Below, in pieces: positions 19,221 to 63,110 of a DNA stretch of 64,000 bases; position 1 is the stretch's first letter; each line of letters opens with the position of its first letter. The stretch lies in the NCBI GenBank assembly GCA_947650365.1, contig OX393555.1:14835550-14899549 (forward strand). The letters run 5' to 3'. A program made the translations under genes and the position numbers. The notes beneath the pieces were generated by a model. It was given only the letters and a program-made list of their open reading frames with translations. It did not search any database and had not been told where the DNA came from. This DNA comes from Chamaelirium japonicum. Lineage: Eukaryota; Streptophyta; Magnoliopsida; Liliales; Melanthiaceae.

Positions 19221-20078
19221 TCGGCATTTTGAACAAGATTGTGTATAATTTGGATAACTAACAAGAATAAAGAAGAAGACAATCGGTCGATCACCCTGCC
19301 TTAGACCACAAAATGGACGAACCCATGACATAGATTTCCCATTAACTAGAAGAGCCAATCTCGTCGAAGACACACATTCCACAATCCATTGCACCCACCT
19401 ATTGGCCATCCCCAATTGAAGCATAATCCTTCCAAGTGCTCCCCAATCGACCCTATCATATGACTTCTCCAAATCCACTGTTACCACCAACAGTGCTTTG
19501 GATGCCGGTGCGATATGCAAATTATGTATAATCTCTGGGGCCAAAAACAAGTTCTCTTTGATCAACCGTCCTAGTACAAAAGCAAATTGACTCGGATCGA
19601 TAAGGTCAGGAAGTAGCATCTTTAGCCTATTAGCTAACAATTTGGCAATAAACTTATATCTCTAATTGCACAGACCAATCGGCCTAAAGTCTTAAGTACC
19701 ATAAGTCTCTCCACCTTCGGAATCAAGGTAATGTATGTGTCATTCCAGGTAACCAGCATTTTTCTTGTTAAGAAGAAACTTTGAATCACATAGCAAAGAT
19801 CTTCCCCAATATCACCCCAACTAAATTTGTAAAATTCACCATTGAATCCATCTGGGCCGAGAGCCTTATTTGTCGGAGATGTCATGACCTTGGATCTCCT
19901 CAGGAGTGGGTATAGTAACAAGAAATGGATTCATATGAGCAGAAACAAACCTTTATACAAGACCATTAATAGGAGCCTCTGTGTTCACCCTGGTATCGCA
20001 CTCCCACCTATCCAGAAATGCCGAGAGTAAACCCTCCTGGATGCGAGCTGCATCACTTACATCCTCTCCTGCCAAGCG
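19221..20078 (-). mobile_element. LINE (L1-type) reverse-transcriptase fragment, copy A
   Basis: The minus-strand frames encode non-LTR reverse transcriptase. The upstream part (19634-19921) has PTNKALGPDGFNGEFYKFSW and TWNDTYITLIPK. The downstream part (19209-19640) has DPSQFAFVLGRLIKEN, VDLEKSYDRVDW and CGLRQGD. These are the conserved fingers and palm regions of plant L1-clade LINEs. The catalytic FADD block is absent because the copy ends at 19221. The frame is interrupted between the two parts, and no endonuclease domain or poly(A) end is present, so this is a dead internal fragment. Confidence 0.9.
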
Positions 20079-20164
20079 TAGGTCCTGAAGAAGATATATG
20101 GATCAAGGGAAGAAAGAAGGGAAGATCAACAAAATCCGATAGAGAGAAGAGGAGGAGACAATGG

Positions 20165-20860
20165 TCAGGCTCCCAACGTGCTGAGCGCACCCGGGAATAC
20201 AACGAAAGGGAGGGCCGGGCTCCTGATATGTTGAACGCACCTAGAAAAAACAATTAAATAGAGAACGAGCTCCTTACACGTTGGGTGCACTAGAGAATAC
20301 AACGTGAGAGACGGATAGGCTTCCGGCGTACTGAGCGCACTAGGGAATACGACGTGAGAGAGGTTCAAGTCTTGGCGTACAGAGCGCACCAGGACATACG
20401 ACGGATAGAGCGCCAGACTCCCGGCATGCTGAGTGCACCAGAGAATACGGCATGAAAGAGGGTTGGGCTCCTGGTGTACTGAACACATCAAAAAATACGA
20501 CGGATAGAGCGTCGAGCTCCCGACGTGCTAAGCTCACCAGGGAATACAACGGATAGAGGGACGGATTTGTAGCTTGCTAAGCACATCGATGAATACAGTG
20601 CAAGAGAGGGTCCGGATCTCGGTGTGCTGAGCACACCGGAAAAAACGGCATAAGATAGGGATGGACTCATGGTGTGCTGAGTGCACGAGGAAATTAGATG
20701 ATGGATAGAGGACCGGGCTCTTGGCATGCTGGATACACATGAGGAATACGACGAGGGTTGGGCTTTTTGGCATGCTGAAAGCACCCGGGGAATATATCGA
20801 AGAGGGGGTGAGGCTCTCAGTGTGCTAAAAGCACCCAAGGAATACGGCGAGGGTATTGCG
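20165..20860. repeat. Degenerate about 50-bp minisatellite, copy A
   Basis: The words CTGAGCGCACC and GGGAATACGACG recur about 13-14 times with a spacing of roughly 45-58 bp, joined by GAGAGAGG and a GGGCTCCCGGC-like linker. Units are strongly diverged from one another, although the whole array is almost identical to the one in copy B. So the array is old and the block duplication is young. Two or three related units lie apart at about 22706-22880. Confidence 0.85.
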
Positions 20861-23120
20861 CAGCAGACGAGATGGAGCCCGACATAGAGAAGGATCGAAG
20901 ATGCGGATACGAGGTCCGGCGCCGTAGATCCCCAAAATGTCAGATCTCATCGGTGCATCCCATGCTGCACTGATTCGATACGGTACAAGACACAGGAAAA
21001 ACCACAGATAAGATGGACACAAGATTTTACAGAGGTTCGCCCAAATGGGGCTATGTCCTCTCTCTCCGGCAACCACCTCCTCCAGGAATCCACGATGAAG
21101 ATATATATAAGATTACACCCGACGACGCTCTATATCCTTTAACAAATCCTAATTAACATATCTCTCCACCACAAAAGTTGATTATGCGCATCAACGGAGA
21201 CCAAACTGTCTTCAACATGTGCCAACGATCCTCCAAAAAACCACCAAATAGAGAAGACCAAAACTGAACATGCTACATGATAAATAGAGAAGAAAGCTTT
21301 ACCTCTTTATGCGCTCTCTCTTTTATCAATCTGACAGATCTAACTGAACAGATCGCACATGGTAATCTCCATAGAGATAACCCTCATGGGTTTTCATAAA
21401 AACTATGATCTAGATACTCATCAGTCATGATCTGCTAGATCAAACATCATTAAAGCACCATGGATCTCCCAACGGCCTTGCGCTTATCCTCTCAGAGTCG
21501 CTCCATCATGGCCTCGGTCTATGCAATGTGGCCTCGCCGTCCATGGCTCGCCACATTGCCTGAAGGTATCTTCCCCAGAAAGGGGGTCTTCTCTAGGTTT
21601 CCTCCAAGTAGAATTCCTCTGAGATTGGTCACCAAACACCCGCACAGTGGTGCTCCAACACGGCATCATGGACACCGCTTGTTAGCCCTTCAACAGCCCG
21701 GGGGAGGAGCAAGGCACGCTTCTCCCTCGGGTTCATCTTCTCCGAAAGAAGCTTCACAAAGAGTCATCGCTGATTGATCAAAAGTTCAAGGATCAAAGAT
21801 GATCAAAAAAAAAATTCCCAAAACCCTAGATTCATTTATATACTAGGGGAATAGGTTACAAGAGCTTAATCCCGAATTTCTCCTCAAAATAGCCAAAATT
21901 AGAAAGTCAAAACGTACTTGACTTGATCAAACCCGTGTCTGCCTGGCACAGTCGTGCACACGACCTGGGAAAGTCATGTGCACGACTTCCTGATGCAAGT
22001 CTCGTCTTTCTGGTGACAGACGCGTTGAGAAATTCGGGCTCCTGGTGGTGCAGACGACCCAACAGTCGTGTGCACGACACCTATCATGCACATGACCTGA
22101 GAGGGTCGTATGCACAACCTGCCGAGGAGGGTTTGACTTGAGCCATCATCAGCAATCTCCACCATAGTGAGATGTCACAAACTAGACGTCTATTCGTCGT
22201 CTTCAAAAGCACTCTGATAGTGCCACTGCTGGTATTACAAACCCGCTTCCTAATGGCGCTCCAAACGGCACCCTGATGGTGCCAAATGACCCCCCTCAGT
22301 ATCTTGAACATGCATCTTGAAGACGCATCGAAAAAACACCCTGTCTGTGCCTGCATTCAAACATGTGTCCTACACCTCTGACCGGTGTATATACCCAACT
22401 GAATACCAATGGCCGATCATCATGCTCGATGATCACCTTCTCTATCCATCCTCCAGTGGACATGATGCCTGGAGTCTCCTTCGACGTCTAAACGAGCTCC
22501 ACCTCAACTGATGTCGCTCCACCACCAATGGACAAACGTCTAAAGTCACATACGACGTCCAACAAGCTCCATCTTTACGATAGACTTGTGTCAGTGGGCA
22601 ATCCCACCGGATATGCTCCCGCTCGACGTCGCAAACATGTGACTCTCCTTCAAATAGGACTCCGAGCCAACCGGCTCTCCTTCAAATAGGATTCCAAGCC
22701 ACCACCACAATGCTCAATAGATGTTGGGCTCCAGGTGTGCTGAGCACACCCAAGAATATGGCGAGGACTGGGCTCCAGGTGTGTTGAGCGCTCCCGGGGA
22801 ATACAGCATGAGAGAGAATAAAGAATGTGGCGCGAGAGAGGACCAAGCTCCCAGAGTGCCGAGCGCACTGAGAAAGATGACGAACGTCTAGCGTATGGAG
22901 GCCACCCTGGGGAGAGAGGCCGGCAACCGGCGATGGTGCAGAAGAGCAATTTGGTGTTATGCAATCATTAACGACATCGAAGTCGAGAAGTAAGGCGTCA
23001 GTGGACCTTGATATTCATTAACCTAGAGCACACCCCAAATTATTGCTTCTTCTCTCACCGAATTAACATGCAATGGCATTGAAATAGCACCGAACAAGTG
23101 TTGTACACTGTGGTGGAGGA
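20861..23120. other. Unassigned DNA of the duplicated block
   Basis: No protein family was recognised on either strand, here or in the counterpart at 29541-31801. Notable contents are a TTACAGAGGTTCGCCCAAATGG stretch (near 21027), a cluster of GTCGTGYRCACGAC palindrome-like words at 21945-22110 and scattered minisatellite units near 22730. Because it lies between the LTRs of the minus-strand copia in copy B, it is best read as that element's non-coding interior. Confidence 0.4.
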
Positions 23121-23416
23121 TGTAACGACCAAGAGCCAATAGCCATGAGCCAAGACTCCTGAGGCTGTGATGCCAAGATGGATGAGGTGAGGTGTACAAG
23201 GCCACGAGTTAGCCCCACATCACTTGGAGAGAAATAGATCATGAGCTACTTGTATAATTTGTACTCTCAAACATAAAAGATCAAACATAAAAGATATGTT
23301 CTAGGTGGTTCGATGGTAACCACGCTAGCGCAAATCCTTAAGGTTGAGGGTTCGATACCCAATAGACCAATATAGGACAATATCTTGTGTTTGGGGGCTC
23401 ACTAACTTTCCTACCA
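23121..23416 (+). mobile_element. Cassandra-type LTR, left part, copy A
   Basis: The piece begins TGTAACGACC, runs through AGACTCCTGAGGCTGTGATG and GAGTTAGCCCCACATCACTT, then the tRNA-like module (about 23301-23366) and its ACAATATCTTGTGTTTGGGG tail. It stops before the 5S-like module that copy B retains. The sequence at the right edge repeats 16-17 bases (TAGCGCAAATCCTTAAG) that also occur inside the tRNA-like module about 92 bases earlier. Confidence 0.8.
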
Positions 23417-23432
23417 ATAGCGCAAATCCTTA

Positions 23433-26599: not shown

Positions 26600-27830
26600 T
26601 AGTTGTCGCTGAATTTGTCTTTGCCGCTTCTTTGGAAACGAGGGAGAGAAAAGGCCATCACTGATTTACTAAGATTAGCCTTCAACCCTGTACATATATG
26701 TATTTGTTCAAATAAACTCTTGAGGCCCCATGCATCCAACATAGATACTCTTGTGTCACAAAGAGTATATCATCAGCAAAAGCGACCATACACACTTGCC
26801 TAGCTGCATTCGATGATTTGAGACCTGTAATATCTCCTTGATCCATGGCATTTTGAACAAGATTGTGTATAATTTGGATAACTAACAAGAATAAAGAAGA
26901 AGACAATCGGTCGATCACCCTGCCTTAGACCACAAAATGGACGAAACCATGACATAGATTTCCCATTAACTAGAAGAGCCAATCTCGTCGAAGACACACA
27001 TTCCACAATCCATTGCACCCACCTATTGGCCATCCCCAATTGAAGCATAATCCTTCCAAGTGCTCCCCAATCGACCCTATCATATGACTTCTCCAAATCC
27101 ACTATTACCACCAACAGTGCTTTGGATGCCGGTGCGATATGCAAATTATGCATAATCTCTGGGGCCAAAAACAAGTTCTCTTTGATCAACCGTCCTAGTA
27201 CAAAAGCAAATTGACTCGGATCGATAAGGTCAGGAAGTTGCATCTTTAGCCTATTAGCTAACAATTTGGCAATAAACTTATATCTCTAATTGCACATACC
27301 AATCGGCCTAAAGTCTTAAGGTACCATAAGTCTCTCCACCTTCGGAATCAAGGTAATGTATGTGTCATTCCAGGTAACCAGCATTTTTCTTGTTAAGAAG
27401 AAACTTTGAATCACATAGCAAAGATCTTCCCCAGTATCACCCCAACTAAATTTGTAAAATTCACCATTGAATCCATCTGGGCCGGGAGCCTTATTTGTCG
27501 GAGATGTCATGACCTTGGATCTCCTCAGGAGTGGGTATAGTAACAAGAAATGGATTCATATGAGCAGAAACAAACCTTTATACAAGACCATTAATAGGAG
27601 CCTCTGTGTTCACCCTGGTATCGCACTCCCACCTATCCAGAAACGCCGAGAGTAAACCCTCCTGGATGCGAGCTGCATCGCTTACATCCTCTCCTGCCAA
27701 GCGTAGGACCTGAATTATGTTTGCCCTGCGGCGGATTTGCGTACTACGGTGGAAGAAACGAGTGTTCTGGTCACCCCACTTCAACCATTGAACTCAAGAT
27801 TTTTGGGAACATAATGATTCTTACATACTC
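26600..27830 (-). mobile_element. LINE (L1-type) reverse-transcriptase fragment, copy B
   Basis: This is the longer copy. In minus-strand order it shows WLKWGDQNTRFFHR (near 27780), PTNKAPGPDGFNGEFYKFSW (near 27480), DPSQFAFVLGRLIKEN (near 27220), DLEKSYDRVDW and CGLRQGD, then the catalytic block VAFADDILFVTQ (near 26790). These are reverse-transcriptase regions from just upstream of the fingers to the active site. The frame is interrupted in at least two places, and neither an endonuclease domain nor a 3' poly(A) end is visible. The upstream edge near 27830 fades into unrecognised sequence. Confidence 0.9.
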
Positions 27831-28212
27831 AAGGAATGCTCCGGCTTCATTTGATTCTCCTCCACACGATTACGCTCCCACCCCTCATCAGATGAACAAG
27901 AATTTGAAAGGTGCTGCAATCCACCTTTTATGGTTGGATGAGATCCTCTCAGTTGTATTTTGGTTTATTAGTTTTCGAACGGTGCAATCACCTCCTACAT
28001 TCAAGGGATTGATAACCCACGGTCTAGGATTTCCCTCCTGTATAAATCTTTATGCAAGAAATAAATAAAGGAAGGAATTCTATTTCTACGAAGGTGTTTC
28101 TAGTTAATTTAGAACTTAGCTAAATGATTACCTCATTAGATGAGTTGGCATCTATTTATATCTAAACTAGGACACCCCCAAAATCTTAATGTTATGCGGG
28201 CGCGCCCATGCA

Positions 28213-28257
<45 letters not shown>

Positions 28258-28841
28258 TTCAAAGAGAATACTCTCTAAATTGATGGTCACTATCTCTTTA
28301 TATAGGGAGAGAATGCACACAATTACAATACCACAGACCATATGGGTCTAAACTATGACTACATCTAACACCCCTCCCTCAAACTAATATAGGGTAAAAA
28401 CCAGCATCAATTTGCCTAACAAAGGAAAAGAAAAATTATAAAGTAAAAGATAATGCCACGCTGACATGCAAGCAAGTCCTCCTAGGAATTTGATTAACTT
28501 GCAAACAAGATAACTGAGGGACCGGGCAAACCTGCAAGCAGATCAATTAGAATATAGGTAATGGTCGTTGAGGCCCGATGCTAAACAGGCCGAGCGATGA
28601 CGAAGGTAGCTGACAATGGTAAAAGTCGACGTAGAAGAGATCATGGTGGGATAGAGAAAAGAGCAAAGGGAAGAGAGATGTGGACACGTGAGACCCCATA
28701 GGAGGCAAGCACTTGGCTGAAGTAAGTGCTCGATACCTCGTGAGAGATCTCGATCGTTATAATTGAAGAAGATATATGGATCAAGGGAAGAAAGAAGGGA
28801 AGATCAACAAAATCCGATAGAGAGAAGAGGAGGAGACAATG

Positions 28842-29540
28842 GTCAGGCTCCCAACGTGATGAACGCACCCGGGAATACAACGAAAGGGAGGGCCGGGCTC
28901 CTGATATGCTGAACGCACCTAGAAAAAACAATTAAATAGAGAACGAGCTCCTTACACGTTGGGTGCACTAGAGAATACAACGTGAGAGAGGGATAGGCTT
29001 CCGGCGTACTGAGCGCACTAGGGAATACGATGTGAGAGAGGTTCAAGTCTTGGCGTACAGAGCGCACCAGGACATACGACGGATAGAGCGCCAGACTCCC
29101 GGCATGCTGAGTGCACCAGAGAATACGGCATGAAAGAGGGTTGGGCTCCTGGTGTACTGAACACATCAAAAAATACGACGGATAGAGCGTCGAGCTCCCG
29201 ACGTGCTAAGCTCACCAGGGAATACAACGGATAGAGGGACGGATTTGTAGCTTGCTAAGCACATCGATGAATACAGTGCAAGAGAGGGTCCGGATCTCGG
29301 TGTGCTGAGCACACTGGAAAATACGGCATAAGATAGGGCTGGACTCATGGTGTGCTGAGTGCACGGGGAAATTATATGATGGATAGAGGACCGGGCTCTT
29401 GGCATGCTGGATACACATGAGGAATACGACGAGGGTTGGGCTTTCTGGCATGCTGAAAGCACCCGGGGAATATATCGAAGAGGGGGTGAGGCTCTCAGTG
29501 TGCTAAAAGCACCCAAGGAATACGGCGAGGATATTGCGCA
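28842..29540. repeat. Degenerate about 50-bp minisatellite, copy B
   Basis: Same array as at 20165-20860, unit for unit, with only scattered substitutions between copies. Both lie in the interior of the minus-strand copia-type element. The stacked minus-strand open frames here come from the repeat and are not genes. Confidence 0.85.
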
Positions 29541-31983
29541 GCAGACGAGATGGAGCCCGACATAGAGAAGGGTCGAAGATGCGGATACGAGGTCCGGCGC
29601 CGTAGATCCCCAAAATGTCAGATCTCATCGGTGCATCCCATGCTGCACTGATTCGATACGGCACAAGACACAGGAAAAACCACAGATAAGAAGGACACAA
29701 GATTTTACAGAGGTTCGCCCAAATGGGGCTATGTCCTCTCTCTCCGGGAACCACCTCCTCCAGGAATCCACGATGAAGATATATATAAGATTACACCCGA
29801 CGACACTCTATATCCTTTAACAAATCCTAATTAACATATCTCTCCACCATAAAAGTTGATTATGCGCATCAACGGAGACCAAACTGTCTTCAACATGTGC
29901 CAACGATCCTCCAAAAAACCACCAAATAGAGAAGACCAAAACTAAACATGCTACATGATAAATAGAGAAGAAAGTTTTACCTCTTTATGTGCTCTCTCTT
30001 TCATCAATCTGACAGATCTAACTGAACAGATCGCACATGGTAATCTCCATAGAGATAACCCTCACGGGTTTTCATAAAACCTATGATCTAGATACTCATC
30101 AGTCATGATCTGTTAGATCAAACATCATTAAAGCACCACGGATCTCCCAACGGACTTGCGCTTATCCTCTCAGAGTCGCTCCATCATGGCCTCGGTCTAT
30201 GCAATGTGGCCTCGCCGTCCATGGCTCGCCACATTGCCTGAAGGTATCTTCCCCAGAAAGGGGGTCTTCTCTAGGTTTCCTCCAAGTAGAATTCCTCTGA
30301 GATTGGTCACCAAACACCCGCACAGTGGTGCTCCAACACGGCATCGTGGACGCCGCTTGTTAGCCCTTCAACAGACCGGGGGAGGAGCAAGGCACGCTTC
30401 TCCCTCGGGTTCATCTTCTCCAAAAGAAGCTTCACAAAGAGTCATCGCTGATTGATCAAAAGTTCAAGGATCAAAGATGATCAAAAAAAAAAATTCCCAA
30501 AACCCTAGATTCATTTATATACTAGGGGAATAGGTTACAAGAGCTTAATCCCGAGTTTCTCCTCAAAATAACCAAAATTAGAAAGTCAAAACGTACTTAA
30601 CTTGGTCAGACCCGTGTCTGCCTGGCACAGTCATGCACACGACCTGGGTAAGTCATGTGCACAACTTCCTGATGCAAGTCTCGTCTTTCTGGTGAAAGAC
30701 GCGTCGAGAAATTCGGGCTCCTAGTGGTGCAGACGATCCAACAGTCGTGCGCACGACACCTATCATGCACATGACCTGAGAGGGTTGTATGCACAACCTG
30801 CTCGAGGAGGGTTTGACTTGAGCCATCATCAGCAATCTCCACCATAGTGAGATGTCACAAACTAGACGTCTATTCATCGTCTTCAAAAGCACTCTGATAG
30901 TGCCACTGCTGGTATTACAAACCCGCTTCCTAATGGCGCTCCAAACGGCACCCTGATGGTGCCAAATGACCCCCCTCAGTATCTTGAACATGCATCTTGA
31001 AGACGCATCGAAAAAACACCCTGTCCGTGCCTGCATTCAAACATGTGTCCTACACCTCTGACCGGTGTATATACCCAACTAAATACCAATGGCCGATCAT
31101 CATGCTCGATGATCACCTTCTCTATCCATCCTCTAGTGGACATGATGCCTGGAGTCTCCTTCGACGTCTAAACGAGCTCCACCTCAACTGATGTCGCTCC
31201 ACCACCAATGGACAAACGTCTAAAGTCTCATACGACGTCCAACAAGCTCCATCTTTACGATAGACTTGTGTCAGTGGGCAATCCCACCGGATATGCTCCC
31301 GCTCGACGTCGCAAACATGTGACTCTCTTTTAAATAGGACTCCGAGCCAACCGGCTCTCCTTCAAATAGGATTCCGAGCCACCACCACAATGCTCAATAG
31401 ATGTTGGGCTCCAGGTGTGCTGAGCACACCGAAGAATATGGCGAGGACTGGGCTCCAGGTGTGTTGAGCGCTCCCGGGGAATACAGCATGAGAGAGAATA
31501 AAGAATGTGGCGCAAGAGAGGACCAAGCTCCCAGAGTGCCGAGCGCACTGAGAAAGATGACGAACATCTAGCGTATGGAGGCCACCCAGGGGAGAGAGGC
31601 CGGCAACTGGCGATGGTGCAGAAGAGCAATTTGGTGTTATGCAATCATTAACGACATCGAAGTCGAGAAGTAAGGCTTCAGTGGACCTTGATATTCATTA
31701 ACCTAGAGCACACCCCAAATTTGTGCTTCTTCTCTCACCGAATGAACATGCATATGGCATTGAACTAGCACCGAACAAGTGTTGTACACTGTGGTGGAGG
31801 ATGTGACGACCAAGAGCCAATAGCCATGAGCCAAGACTCCTGAGGCTGTGATGCCAAGATGGATGAGGTGAGGTGTACAAGGCCACGAGTTAGCCCCACA
31901 TCACTTGGAGAGAAATAGATCATGAGCTACTTATATAATTTGTACTCTCAAACATAAAAGATCAAATATAAAAGATATGTTCT

Positions 31984-32046
31984 AGGTGGTTCGATGGTAA
32001 CCACGCTAGCGCAAATCCTTAAGGTTGAGGGTTCGATACTCAATAG
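31984..32046 (+). promoter_or_regulatory. tRNA-like Pol III-type module in Cassandra LTR
   Basis: TGGTTCGATGGTAACCA resembles a tRNA A box and GAGGGTTCGATAC a tRNA B box (consensus GGTTCGANTCC), about 45 bp apart. The region is not a complete tRNA: no acceptor stem can be drawn. Near-identical modules lie at 23301-23366 and 32511-32571. It is followed by ACAATATCTTGTGTTTGGGG, a tail that also follows the 5S-like module. Confidence 0.6.
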
Positions 32047-32117
32047 ACCAATAGAGGACAATATCTTGTGTTTGGGGGCTCACTAACTTTCCTACCAAGA
32101 TGTGTTTTAAAATTATG

Positions 32118-32208
32118 CACCGCTACGGATTTCGTAAGAACTCCGTAGTTAAGCGTGCTCGAGCAAGAGTAGTACTAGGATGGGTGACCTCCCTGGGAAG
32201 TCCTTGAA
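32118..32208 (+). promoter_or_regulatory. 5S rRNA-like Pol III module in Cassandra LTR
   Basis: About 90 bp match the interior of plant 5S rRNA: AAGAACTCCGTAGTTAAGCG (A box region), then GAGTAGTACTAGGATGGGTG and ACCTCCCTGGGAAGTCCT (intermediate element and C box). The ends of a real 5S gene are absent and the block sits in an LTR, so it is not a 5S gene. In Cassandra this block is thought to give Pol III promoter activity and 5S-like folding. Confidence 0.85.
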
Positions 32209-33270
32209 CGGACACGGGCAATGCGGACAATATCTTGTATGTTTGGGACGGATGTTATAAAATGGTATCAGAGCCGGTTCTCCTCGGGATTGGGGGGTCT
32301 AACCCTACACGTGGACGTGTAGCCCTTAAGGAGGGTGGATTGTGACGACCAAGACATAAGAGCCAAGACTCCTGAGGCTGTGATGCTAAGATGGATGAGG
32401 TGAGGTGAGGTGAGGTGTACAAGGCCACGAGTTAGCCCCACATCACCTAGATAGAAGGAAATCCTGAGCTACTTATATAATTTTCCCTCTCAAACATAGA
32501 AGACGCATTGTTGGTGGTTCAATGGTAACCACACTAGTGCAAAACCTTAAGGTTGAGGGTTCAAAACCCAATAGACCAATAGCCGGAGTTGGATCGACCA
32601 CGAACGAGGAGGAAGAAAGCTGCGTAAGGGAGAGAGTGAGATCTAGCCACACCTTCTCCCTCTACTATGCTGCTGGACGATCTGAAGATCGAGGAGATCA
32701 CCTACCAAGAGCTCCTTAGCACATCACAAAACATACATCGCTATCCATCCGAAGACGCATTGGTGTGGCTGAATTTGTCATCGAACGCTAGCCAACCGAA
32801 GAAGAGATGATCTGAGAGGGTGCTTTCCCTCCTCTTTGAAGTGAGAGCTCCCTCCTCTTTGATGGCGGTGAGGACGAGATTGTTTTGTAGAGCAGAGGAG
32901 GAGGTTGGCGCTTGGGATCGACTTGGGACTCGTGGATCTAAAAAGGAGGCCTACGAGATGGTTGAAAGACACAAATCTATTGAGCATGGTCCTCCTTCAA
33001 CTAGTGAGGACCAAATGAACCGGTGGCGAGTCCGGCGGATCGACGAGAGGCCGGAGGAGACAACCTTGAGTTAGGAGGGATCCAACCCCCAGGCAAGCAA
33101 CTTGGTTCTGATACCATGTTATGCAAGAGAAAGAGAGACTAGGATTCCGAGGAAAATACTCTCTGAATTGATCATATTATACTAACACTACCTCTCTTTA
33201 TATAGGGAGTGAAAGCACGCAATTACTATACCACATATCATGTGTGTCTAGACTTTGACTAGATCTAACA

Positions 33271-33690: not shown

Positions 33691-35049
<1,359 letters not shown>

Positions 35050-35144
35050 TCTCTAGTATGTGAGGATGGCGAGTGACTTGTAGGATCTCTTGGGTTTAGC
35101 AAAGGAGAAGATTGTGTGAAGAGAGGGTGAGGAGAGGGTCACTC

Positions 35145-35152
35145 TATATAAC
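35145..35152 (-). promoter_or_regulatory. HIPP proximal TATA box
   Basis: GTTATATAGAG on the minus strand lies about 95 bp upstream of the proximal ATG (35049-35047). The spacing suits a plant TATA promoter with a short leader. An identical motif is found in the duplicated unit. Confidence 0.55.
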
Positions 35153-35327
35153 TAGAGGGTCATGTAGTGTAAGGGTTAGGAAAGGGCTGAGAAGGTTCAT
35201 GCTGAAATTCTCACCAAGCAAACATACTCTTCATTTCAACCAAACGACTTGAGCAGTTGGTCTTAAGACCAAGTCATGGGGTGGGGTTGGGTGTCGGCTA
35301 CATCCAAAGACCATGCAATCTTAGGTT

Positions 35328-35526
<199 letters not shown>

Positions 35527-35856
35527 ACGTTAAGTCAACGTTTTCTACCCTCCATAGGACCATAAAAGTTTATCCCAAAAAAACATTTCTTCGGATAGCC
35601 CAAAACGTACTCCTAAGAGTCATATTTTTGGAGCCCAAAATCGAGGATCCAGGCTACGGAACCCTTTTTTTATAATTATGAACTCCAAGAATGTCATAAT
35701 CAGAATCCTATCCAAACATGGCCTACTTTTCTATAACTAAATCTTGCTCGATTGTGAAAGCAAAAACAATCGAGAAAGTAACAATATGGAAACTAAAGTA
35801 GAAGTATCAAATGAGTTGTCTATTTCCATCTAATAATAAAAAACTTTTTTTTTGTT

Positions 35857-35955
<99 letters not shown>

Positions 35956-35971
35956 GGGGGGGGTAACATGC

Positions 35972-36079
35972 CTTCATTCTCTAGTATGTGAGGATGGCGA
36001 GTGACTTGTAGGATCTCTTGGGTTTAGCAAAGGAGAAGATTGTGTGAAGAGAGGGTGAGGAGAGGGTCACTCTATATAA
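35972..36079 (-). promoter_or_regulatory. HIPP distal duplicate: exon 1 copy and TATA box
   Basis: The duplicated ATG-AAG lies at 35977-35972 with the same GC donor context, and the TATA box (TTATATAGA) at about 36071-36079. If active, transcripts from here could splice the distal two-codon exon straight to exon 2 at 34412 and give the same protein. Use of this start is an inference. Confidence 0.5.
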
Positions 36080-36255
36080 CTAGAGGGTCATGTAGTGTAA
36101 GGGTTAGGAAAGGGCTGAGAAGGTTCATGCTGAAATTCTCACCAAGCAAACATACTCTTCATTTCAACCAAACGACTTGAGCAGTTGGTCTTAAGACCAA
36201 GTCATGGGGTGGGGTTGGGTGTCGGCTACATCCAAAGACCATGCAATCTTAGGTT

Positions 36256-36306
<51 letters not shown>

Positions 36307-36330
36307 GTTGGGTGTCGTCTACATTCAAAG

Positions 36331-36437
<107 letters not shown>

Positions 36438-36507
36438 ACGTTAAGTCAACGTTTTCTACCCTCCATAGGACCATAAAAGTTTATTTAGTTTTCACTTTTC
36501 ACAATAC

Positions 36508-37687: not shown

Positions 37688-37992
37688 TGTAACACCCACC
37701 ACAAACACATAAGATAGCGTTCGCTTTGTTCATTGCCGCACAAAAACTTCCCATAAGGTCACCCATCAAAGTATTATTCTCGTCCGAGCACGCTTAACTA
37801 TAGAGTTCTTACGAAATTCATAGCGGTACATGGTTTTAAAACACGTCTTATATGCTTGGATGGAAAAAACTATATAAGTAGCTCAGGATCTCTTTATCTC
37901 CAGGTAATGTGGGGCTAACTCGTGACCTTGGATACGTCACCTCATCCATCTAGACATCATTGCCTCAGGAGTCTTGGATCTTGGTCATCACA
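37688..37992 (-). mobile_element. Solo Cassandra LTR
   Basis: About 305 bp, starting on the minus strand TGTGATGACCAAGATCC and ending GGTGGGTGTTACA. It contains the 5S-like block (AGTTAAGCGTGCTCGGACGA and GATGGGTGACCTTATGGGAA), and AGACTCCTGAGG is shared with the TRIM at 31802. It lacks the tRNA-like module: CATATAAGACGTG joins TTTTAAAACCATG directly. No primer site or second LTR is near, hence a solo LTR. It is the oldest-looking Cassandra copy here by divergence from 5S. Confidence 0.85.
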
Positions 37993-38536
37993 CTGTCGAG
38001 ACTAGTTGGTGAATGGAGACCGACGATGGTTGAGGTAGGAAGTGGAGGAATTTGGTTGTAAGCTGTGTCATACAAAACGGTGACCGAAATTGGAGGTGCC
38101 GGAGGCCGATAGAACCGACAATGTCGAAGGTCAATGAATTGAGGAAGCTAACAGTGGAGGAGGCCGGCGGTGCCGAGGCCAAGTGAGACCAGCTAGACAT
38201 TGTACCATGTGCCTTTAAGATAGCTAAAAGCTTGCATCAAATAGTAATTAAGATTTTTTTTTTTTGGAGAAGGACAAAATTACCCTTGTTAGAGTGGTCT
38301 CTACAAATGCTAATACACCAAGAGACAATTGTTCGAAGCCTGCCAACTGCATGAGCACAAAGTTTTTTACCTCGCCGAAGACCATATCAATCCAACACAA
38401 AGATGTATAATACCTTGCCAACCTGCGTCACCCAAACCGTGTCCTCCACTTCTAGAACTCGATGACTATTGATCTTCTGCCTGCGACGAACAATTCACTT
38501 GATCGACATCATCGTCATAATATTAGAAACCTGTAA

Positions 38537-48616: not shown

Positions 48617-48801
48617 AATTATTATGAATCGATGTATCTAGAAATTTTACAGCACCATGATCAAAGTGGACATGCGATTTAGGTGTTACATTTACATTTA
48701 AAACTATATTAAATGTAAATGCAATACCTAAATCACATGTCCACTTTGATCATAGTGCTCTAAAAGTTCTAGATACATAGATCATCATAATAATTGTGCT
48801 A
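48617..48801. repeat. Foldback element with about 85-bp arms
   Basis: The left arm (about 48617-48703) and right arm (about 48708-48801) are inverted copies with few mismatches. The core words ATGATCAAAGTGGACATG and TTTAGGTRTTRCATTTACAT pair across a loop of only a few bases. It is probably a MITE, or the remains of an inverted duplication. Such a transcript would make one long hairpin. No coding sequence. Confidence 0.8.
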
Positions 48802-60901: not shown

Positions 60902-60992
60902 TGTAACATCCGCCCCAAACACACAAGATATCGTTCGCTTTGCCCGTGCTCGCACGAGAACTTCTCAGGGTGGTCACCCATCCTGGTACTTA
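60902..60992 (-). mobile_element. Cassandra LTR piece
   Basis: On the minus strand this is the right end of a Cassandra LTR: the 3' part of the 5S-like block (AGGATGGGTGACCACCCTGA), then ATATCTTGTGTGTTTGGGGC and GGATGTTACA. It sits inside the gypsy pol region on one side and is cut by another LTR element at 60993 on the other. The rest of it would lie beyond the right window edge. Confidence 0.75.
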
Positions 60993-61789: not shown

Positions 61790-63110
61790 TGATCGGTCAA
61801 AGTTGACCGATCAGTCAACTTTGGCCGATCGGTCAAATTTGACCGATCAGTCAATTTTGGCCGATCGGTCAAATTTGACCGATCAGTTGATTTTGGCCGA
61901 TCGGTCATGTTTGACCGATCGGTTAAAATCAACCGATCAAGGTTTGAGTGATCGGGCAAAAAACCAAGTTTTTTGCCCGATCCAGTAGAAAATCGACCGA
62001 TCTGTTGATTTTGACCGATCGGTCATGTTTGACCGATCGGTTAAAATCAACCGGTCAAGGTTTGAGTGATCGGGCAAAAAACCAAGGTTTTTGCCCGATC
62101 TAGTAGAAAATCGACCGATCGATTGCTTTTGACCGATCGGTCATGTTTGACCGATCGGTTAAAATCAGCCGGTCAAGGTTTGAGTGATCGGGCAAAAAAC
62201 TAAGTTTTTCACCTGATCCAGTAGAAAATCAACCGATCGGTTGATTTTGACCGATCGGTCATGTTTGACCGATCGGTTAAAATCAGCCGGTCAAGGTTTG
62301 AGTGATCGGCAAAAAACTAAGTTTTTCGCCTGATCCAGTAGAAAATCGACCGATCGGTTGATTTTGGCCGATCGGTCATGTTTAACCGATCGGTTAAAAT
62401 CAACCGGTCAAGGTTTGAGTGATCGGGCAAAAAACCAAGTTTTTTGCCCGATCCAGTAGAAAATCGACCGATCGGTTGATTTTGACCGATCGGTCATGTT
62501 TGACCGATCGGTTAAAATCAGCCGGTCAAGGTTTGAGTGATCGGGCAAAAAACTAAGTTTTTCGCCTGATCCAGTAGAAAATCGACCGATCGGTTGATTT
62601 TGATCGATCGGTTAAAATCAGTCGGTCAAGGTTTGAGTGATCGGGTAAAAAACTAAGTTTTTCGCTTGATCCAGTAGAAAATCGATCGATCGGTTGATTT
62701 TGACCGATCGGTCATGTTTGACCGATCGATTAAAATCAGTCGATCAAGGTTTGAGTGATCGGGCAAAAAACTAAGTTTTTCGCCTGATCCAGTAGAAAAT
62801 CGACCGATCGGTTGATTTTGACCGATCGGTCATGTTTGATCGATCAGTTAAAATCAGCTGGTCAAGGTTTGAGTGATCGGGCAAAAAACTAAGTTTTTCG
62901 CCTGATCCAGTAGAAAATCGATCGATCGGTTGATTTTGACCGATCGGTCATGTTTGACCGATTGGTTAAAATCAGCCGGTCAAGGTTGGCGGGATCGGGC
63001 AAAAAACCTAGTTTATTGCCTGATCCAATAGAAAATCGATCGATTGGATGAATTTGACCAATCGGTCAAGTTTGACCGATTGGTTAAATTCAGCCGGTCA
63101 ATTTGAAGTT
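61790..63110. repeat. About 118-bp tandem repeats with internal hairpins
   Basis: The word GGTTTGAGTGATCGGG returns at about 61940, 62058, 62176, 62294, 62411, 62527, 62621, 62739 and 62863, mostly 116-118 bp apart. That makes roughly ten units, some shortened. Each unit holds GTTGATTTTGACCGATCGGTCA followed, after TG, by its near-perfect reverse complement, giving a stem of about 22 bp. The palindrome TTGACCGATCGGTCAA occurs dozens of times. Left of 61930 the array degenerates into 30-bp half units. Confidence 0.9.

Follow-up and report, generated by a model that had tools for sequence, protein, structure and literature searches.

The 64,000-nucleotide stretch of Chamaelirium japonicum DNA analysed here (contig OX393555.1, positions 14,835,550 to 14,899,549, forward strand; hereafter the window) contains a decayed Cassandra-type terminal-repeat retrotransposon in miniature (TRIM), whose long terminal repeats (LTRs) carry a 115-bp insert with a tRNA-like head just ahead of the 5S rRNA-like module that is typical of Cassandra. 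Copies across the host assembly show that LTRs of this dual-module kind form a genuine Cassandra subfamily, one that has been mobile and whose modules have been shuffled, and we put at roughly 0.6 the probability that the window element is a broken old member of that subfamily, with an LTR that combines two small-RNA-gene-like modules and was spread by retrotransposition. Two working RNA polymerase III (Pol III) promoters in one LTR are possible, judging from sequence. The anatomy of the element, with one better-preserved element of the host assembly (L005) for comparison, is as follows:

31802-32582, + strand: decayed Cassandra TRIM, beginning with TGTGACGACC at 31802
31802-32259, + strand: 5' LTR, 458 bp, dual-module type (U3, insert, 5S, U5)
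31932-31938, + strand: TATATAA within U3
31972-31981, + strand: copy 1 of a 10-bp direct repeat, AAGATATGTT in this element
31982-32096, + strand: 115-bp insert between U3 and the 5S module, made of a tRNA-like head (about 31982-32055) and a tail
31987-31997, + strand: A-box-like word TGGTTCGATGG
32030-32040, + strand: B-box-like word GGTTCGATACT, GGTTCGATACC in L005
32056-32096, + strand: insert tail, the first part of which nearly copies the LTR's own U5 start
32097-32106, + strand: copy 2 of the 10-bp direct repeat, AAGATGTGTT, spanning the 5S +1
32101-32217, + strand: 5S rRNA-like module (Rfam RF00001 covariance model, 42 bits)
32105-32108, + strand: TTTT, a likely Pol III terminator
32147-32158, + strand: 5S box A, AGTTAAGCGTGC
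32177-32189, + strand: 5S box C, AGGATGGGTGACC
32225-32259, + strand: U5 end of the 5' LTR
32263-32274, + strand: primer binding site (PBS) TGGTATCAGAGC downstream of the 5' LTR, the same as the Cassandra PBS printed in PMC7215508
32327-32340, + strand: polypurine tract (PPT) region
32341-32582, + strand: 3' LTR, truncated ahead of the tail and the 5S
32500-32509, + strand: copy 1 of the 10-bp repeat in the 3' LTR
32510-32582, + strand: insert head in the 3' LTR

The 5S covariance match, the PBS, and the 18 nt between boxes AGTTAAGCGTGC and AGGATGGGTGACC, which correspond to the Cassandra pair RGTTAAGYRHGY / RRRATRGGTRACY, bear out the first-pass annotation of this locus as a Cassandra-type TRIM with a 5S module. 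The internal domain is short (about 80 bp) and non-coding, and the 5S is kept solely by the 5' LTR. The TATATAA lies 14 bp farther upstream than in L005 (27 bp there), owing to a local tandem repeat. Aligned locally, the insert tail and the U5 start score 37, against a maximum of 26 across 500 shuffles; the tail ends CTTTCCTACC here and CTTTCCTGCC in L005, without an A- or T-rich 3' end. As had been claimed, the tRNA-like block is present in both LTRs, with 63 of 70 aligned positions equal. Between the two LTRs, 14 of 159 positions are unequal outside the block and 7 of 70 inside it (p = 0.81), and this is therefore an old copy.

The block is not confined to this locus, and the first of the two refuting conditions set out in the first-pass annotation therefore does not hold. 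In the 1.52-Gb host assembly the U3-to-insert junction has 660 matches (24-mer, no more than 3 mismatches; reversed control 0) and the insert-free U3-to-5S junction 10,665 (24-mer, no more than 3 mismatches; reversed control 1), while a 22-mer from the A-box region has 700 (no more than 2 mismatches; control 0). Three scans of viral contigs with patterns from the block each gave 0 matches. We sampled 95 loci in all: L001-L020 and most of L021-L038 are the best matches to the whole block, and 51 regions were chosen among 100 listed of the 700 head places, with a bias to chromosome C1 and to well-matching heads. Repeats (L001, L005, L006, L018, and L019) were dropped from the first parse of LTR chains, and loci that share the insertion of L007 (L008-L011 and L033) were also dropped from the next; the target-duplication parse omits those ten loci and L002, keeping 78 of 89; and the insert-length parse leaves out 22 of 109 dual LTRs that misfit the search expression, so that 87 were parsed. 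Among these 87 the insert is 115 or 116 bp long in 83, and the two 10-bp copies are identical in 45 and differ by at most one mismatch in 75. In better-preserved copies the 10-bp repeat, AAGACGCGTT, brackets the insert and spans the 5S start; both copies in the 5' LTR of L005/L038 read AAGACGCGTT, the element is flanked by ACTTC twice, and the 5S module of L005 scores 44.7 bits with RF00001. One Cassandra insertion recurs, with identical or almost identical flanks, once on each of six contigs (L007, L008, L009, L010, L011, and L033), and was probably multiplied inside a larger repeat.

Dual-module elements have moved. Specifically, i) the sample holds 24 two-LTR elements in which each LTR carries both modules, and 15 of these are flanked by perfect 5-bp target duplications (two of them homopolymers, AAAAA and CCCCC), 2 by duplications with one mismatch, and 7 by none at the automatically placed ends; ii) the LTR pairs of the 17 elements with 0-1 mismatch duplications are 90.0-100% identical; and iii) the LTRs of L070, which has a perfect target duplication, are identical at 467 of 467 positions. 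We conclude from these duplications and from the identical LTRs that the dual-module subfamily has transposed, and that at least one dual insertion is young enough for identical LTRs. The proposal that the block is a heritable subfamily trait is supported; it has one insertion point, and the dual LTR has moved as such. Perfect duplications also surround mixed chains of 5S-only and dual LTRs (L017, L052, L073, and L086), three- or four-LTR chains (L041, L056, L071, L076, and L084), chains with other LTR types (L007 and L042), solo dual LTRs (L050, L060, and L074), and a 5S-only pair (L048, other strand). An eight-LTR tandem array at 2098-5755 of L037 (C8:6500000-6509000), in which 5S-only and dual LTRs largely alternate, has no target duplication in its flanks. 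The dual elements L038 and L070 are 1006 and 1016 bp long, and the 5S-less elements L090 and L094, described below, 668 and 666 bp; the TRIM screening limit given in PMC10886601 is <1000 bp.

The history that we favour would begin with a 115-bp piece, a tRNA-like head joined to a partly U5 tail, becoming fixed at the 5S +1 of one LTR, where it would have come to lie between two 10-bp copies of AAGACGCGTT. The dual LTR would then have multiplied by ordinary LTR retrotransposition (PBS, PPT, and 5-bp target duplications), presumably with help in trans because the element codes for nothing. The head may act as a type-2 Pol III promoter that took over the LTR's TATATAA, about 27 bp upstream of its start, and the 5S module may retain its internal boxes plus the TTTT behind its own +1. 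A transcript from the upstream start would reach that TTTT after about 135 nt, so that a full-length transcript would have to start at the 5S +1 or read through.

Insertion of the block appears to have been followed by exchange of modules. Of 25 alignments between adjacent dual and 5S-only LTRs, 19 have a largest gap of exactly 125 or 126 bp, the size of the insert plus one 10-bp copy; the other six pairs have a 117-bp or split gap. Besides LTRs in which the insert is missing, we observe LTRs in which it is doubled (both LTRs of L023 and of L046), LTRs in which it lies behind the 5S, and LTRs without the 5S. In both LTRs of L091, an element flanked by a GATAA duplication, the 5S comes first, followed by the tail and then the head; the junction of this reversed order is rare (4 matches at two places). 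The head is joined straight to U5 at 24 places in the host assembly (control 0), and of the 11 inspected, 8 are in U3-head-U5 LTRs, 2 are in L091 (with the 5S in front), and 1 (L095) has no U3 that could be found. Both LTRs of L094 are 5S-less (U3-head-U5), with CTTAA duplicated; those of L090 are also 5S-less, equal at 288 positions with 1 different and a 10-bp gap, and flanked by CATCT/CATAT. L093 combines a 5S-only 5' LTR with a head-only 3' LTR, with TTCTC duplicated. In L042, where CCACC is duplicated, 169 bp comprising the tail and the 5S are missing from the 5' LTR, and the LTR pair is otherwise equal at 291 of 293 positions, plus one 10-bp gap; this element likely displays a step to 5S loss within one LTR. 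Thus a single genome harbours LTRs that are 5S-only, tRNA-like-only, dual, doubled, or reversed.

The block had been described as acquired once, and this holds for the insertion event but not for a clade. When 58 LTRs are placed on a tree from their sequence outside the block, dual LTRs do not group together, and a clade of dual LTRs is rejected; a minimum of 13 changes in block presence is needed (bootstrap 12-14), compared with an average of 14.2 for shuffled labels, although the well-supported branches force only 2 changes. The shared insertion point and length speak for one insertion event, with later reshuffling of which LTRs have the block. The breakpoints suggest that exchange runs through the 10-bp repeat and through GGACAATATCTTGTG, which is common to the tail and U5.

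Is the head a promoter? Type-2 boxes are described as 30-40 bp apart (PMC7279448), and plant tRNA genes are commonly, though not invariably, preceded by TATA and CAA motifs and followed by T-runs (PMC11700998). In L005 the 5S +1 is the second base of the second 10-bp copy (49 bases back from 5S box A, with the covariance model beginning two bases past it), and the start of TATATAA lies 27 bp ahead of the corresponding base of the first 10-bp copy; numbered from that base, the A word begins at +15 and the B word follows 43 bp later, with TTTT behind. The A and B words match the consensus at 9 of 10 (B) and 6 of 9 (A) positions, and a pair this good at a spacing of 41-46 is expected 0.0008 times per 115-bp insert, a rate that derives from one background site in 124 kb; at looser spacing the expectation is 0.007. 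In L038 and L070 T4 runs stand at the 5S start and nowhere else; of 42 dual LTRs, some have a further TTTT downstream of TATATAA, and a few have one at other places. Support for the label "tRNA-like" is moderate, and a second working Pol III promoter in the LTR is plausible on this sequence evidence.

Several observations weigh against a promoter, and against reading the head as tRNA-like. The first-pass annotation had looked to a tRNA covariance model to support the A and B boxes, and that support did not materialize: permissive Rfam covariance scans (E no greater than 10) of four stretches gave no tRNA match. A whole-genome tRNA search for the source of the insert, which scored 63 of 68,688 candidates, returned 63 places, all at 75 bits and listed without sequence, and did not reveal the source; neither a free copy of the head nor a source tRNA was found. 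Leaving out its N column, the B box of the head varies like the rest of the head and tail (15/544 versus 196/5146, p = 0.28). TATATAA is only marginally conserved (p = 0.04), and might just as well be used by Pol II or for the 5S start. Neither 5S-less element (L090 or L094) has a T4 run, and a Pol III transcript of these would therefore have no such terminator inside the element. Finally, the partly U5-derived tail is unexplained by a plain short interspersed element (SINE). Box conservation was also considered as proof of function and rejected, there being no excess over head and tail; the N column is the most variable of the B box (16/68 letters), which is suggestive only, and the A box lies within the search word, so that its conservation cannot be judged. 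ARAGORN reported no tRNA in the window; with lowered thresholds it reported the block in both LTRs, and this result was discarded because four other stretches of the same 811 bp were also reported. As a separate observation, a single tRNA score (75 bits) recurs on many small contigs numbered C539 and upward, six of which have it twice, on opposite strands and about 28.9 kb apart; these contigs look like plastid genome fragments in the assembly.

A passive passenger is the alternative that survives best, although we rate it at somewhat less than an even chance: the insert would be filler, transcription would come from the 5S (or from TATATAA by Pol II), and the A and B words would be coincidental. 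Besides the missing tRNA match and the unremarkable B box, it is favoured by the window copies themselves, whose A and B words taken alone are near chance level (14/19 in the 5' LTR, with 160 sites that good in the window versus 128.6 in shuffles; 15/19 in the 3' LTR and 23121 copies, with 40 sites versus 19.6). The 5S boxes remain less variable than the rest of the 5S module in dual LTRs (33/1496 versus 273/4751 letters, as raw counts), and 660 insert LTRs against 10,665 without give no sign of advantage. Against a mere passenger stand the tRNA-like spacing of the box pair (expectation 0.0008 for each insert, from the one background site), the placing of the insert directly behind TATATAA at -27, and two-LTR elements, L094 and L090, without any 5S.

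A second alternative, which we rate a little lower, is recombination or template switching within Cassandra: the 5S would at first have given way to the tRNA-like piece, and the resulting LTR would then have fused with a 5S LTR, at the AAGACGCGTT common to both, to give the dual form. The tail that partly copies U5, the head-bearing LTRs without 5S, and the existence of both module orders are all consistent with this order of events, but the 5S-less LTRs bear two different head variants and the one in L042 looks made from a dual LTR, so that they look derived, and head-to-U5 junctions are few (24).

SINEs characteristically have an A- or T-rich 3' tail and are flanked by target duplications of about 5-20 bp, within which the 10-bp copies fall. 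Insertion of a tRNA-headed SINE into a Cassandra LTR by the machinery of long interspersed elements, with a 10-bp target duplication, would account for that repeat and for the tRNA-like head, but is unlikely in view of a 3' end that is neither A- nor T-rich, a tail that is partly Cassandra U5, and no sign of free heads. On the last point, the 700 head matches are close in number to the 660 junctions, and all of 154 parsed heads (a sample rather than a census, drawn from 83 of the first 89 loci, with six window or overlapping loci omitted) lie no more than 80 bp from a Cassandra module to one side or both, which suggests that the head is no free-living repeat in the host genome. The same insertion model has been proposed for Helenus, another TRIM (PMC10886601).

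Three further pieces of Cassandra lie in the window:

23121-23417, + strand: block-bearing duplicate of the 5' LTR, produced by segmental duplication and cut off before the 5S
37688-37994, - strand: solo LTR of the 5S-only type, without the insert (aligned stretch)
60904-60990, - strand: Cassandra LTR fragment (3' part of the 5S, and U5)

The copy at 23121 does carry the block, as had been noted, but it is part of a segmental duplication of about 4.2 kb (19223-23417 versus 26847-32098, in pieces 97.9 and 98.7% identical) and so adds no independent evidence. The second copy of this duplication holds about 1 kb of extra sequence (27715-28763), and just beyond the right junction at 23417 is a short re-copied piece of the block (TAGCGCAAATCCTTAAG), resembling a templated repair junction. 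The reported absence of the block from the solo LTR at 37688 is also correct: U3 there runs directly into the 5S. Elsewhere in the window are neighbouring near-identical duplicates with microsatellite runs (34586-36484; 96-98.8%), a near-palindrome at 48617-48795 that matches its own reverse complement at 88% and is possibly a miniature inverted-repeat transposable element, and a satellite-like array at 61877-63101 with a 118-bp unit made of palindromic GACCGATCGGTC words.

A more far-reaching reading is a switch of Pol III promoter class by module exchange. A Cassandra LTR would have added a working type-2 (tRNA-like) promoter at the start of its type-1 (5S) promoter, with a shared TATA, and some descendants would have lost the 5S and gone on to transpose with only the tRNA-like module; we consider this doubtful, but if true, Cassandra would have given rise to an element of the Helenus type inside a single genome. 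The family makes promoter uptake and replacement in TRIMs directly testable, and bears on the proposed origin of Helenus-type elements by insertion into an existing TRIM. A second small-RNA-like module at the 5S start bears on how Cassandra got its 5S, for which single versus multiple uptake is discussed as an open question in PMC10853983.

Helenus, Ajax, and the class TRIMp3 have been described, with SINE insertion into a TRIM LTR proposed as origin (Kojima 2024, PMC10886601); tRNA-like LTRs (in Helenus) and 5S LTRs (in Cassandra and Ajax) are thus each on record for separate TRIMs, and the sole plant Helenus in that paper comes from Selaginella. The first-pass annotation had regarded two types of Pol III promoter in one LTR as new; neither module type is new to TRIM LTRs by itself, but no report of a TRIM with both together was found in the open-access literature searched. 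Cassandra, for which tandem arrays, PBS, and 5S box motifs are described in PMC7215508, resembles the present elements in its PBS, its 5S boxes A and C 18 nt apart, its two LTRs around a short internal domain, and its tandem arrays (PMC7215508, PMC10853983); it differs in that a tRNA-like module precedes the 5S here, and the LTR is about 460 bp long versus about 340. Helenus is alike in having tRNA-like A and B words in both LTRs, in being non-coding, and in its 5-bp target duplications, and the 5S-less L090 and L094 have the Helenus layout, but the elements described here are built from Cassandra parts and are without tRNA model support. Ajax and TRIMp3 share a small-RNA-gene-like promoter in a TRIM LTR, and as far as described in PMC10886601 have one promoter type per element, against two promoter-like modules here. 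Cassandra-like TRIMs without 5S, with differing LTR sequence and a TATA box, are known from Carduoideae (PMC10853983) and are 5S-less relatives as L090 and L094 are; unlike the Carduoideae elements, the 5S-less elements here have a plain Cassandra U3, U5, and internal domain, with a tRNA-like module in the place of the 5S.

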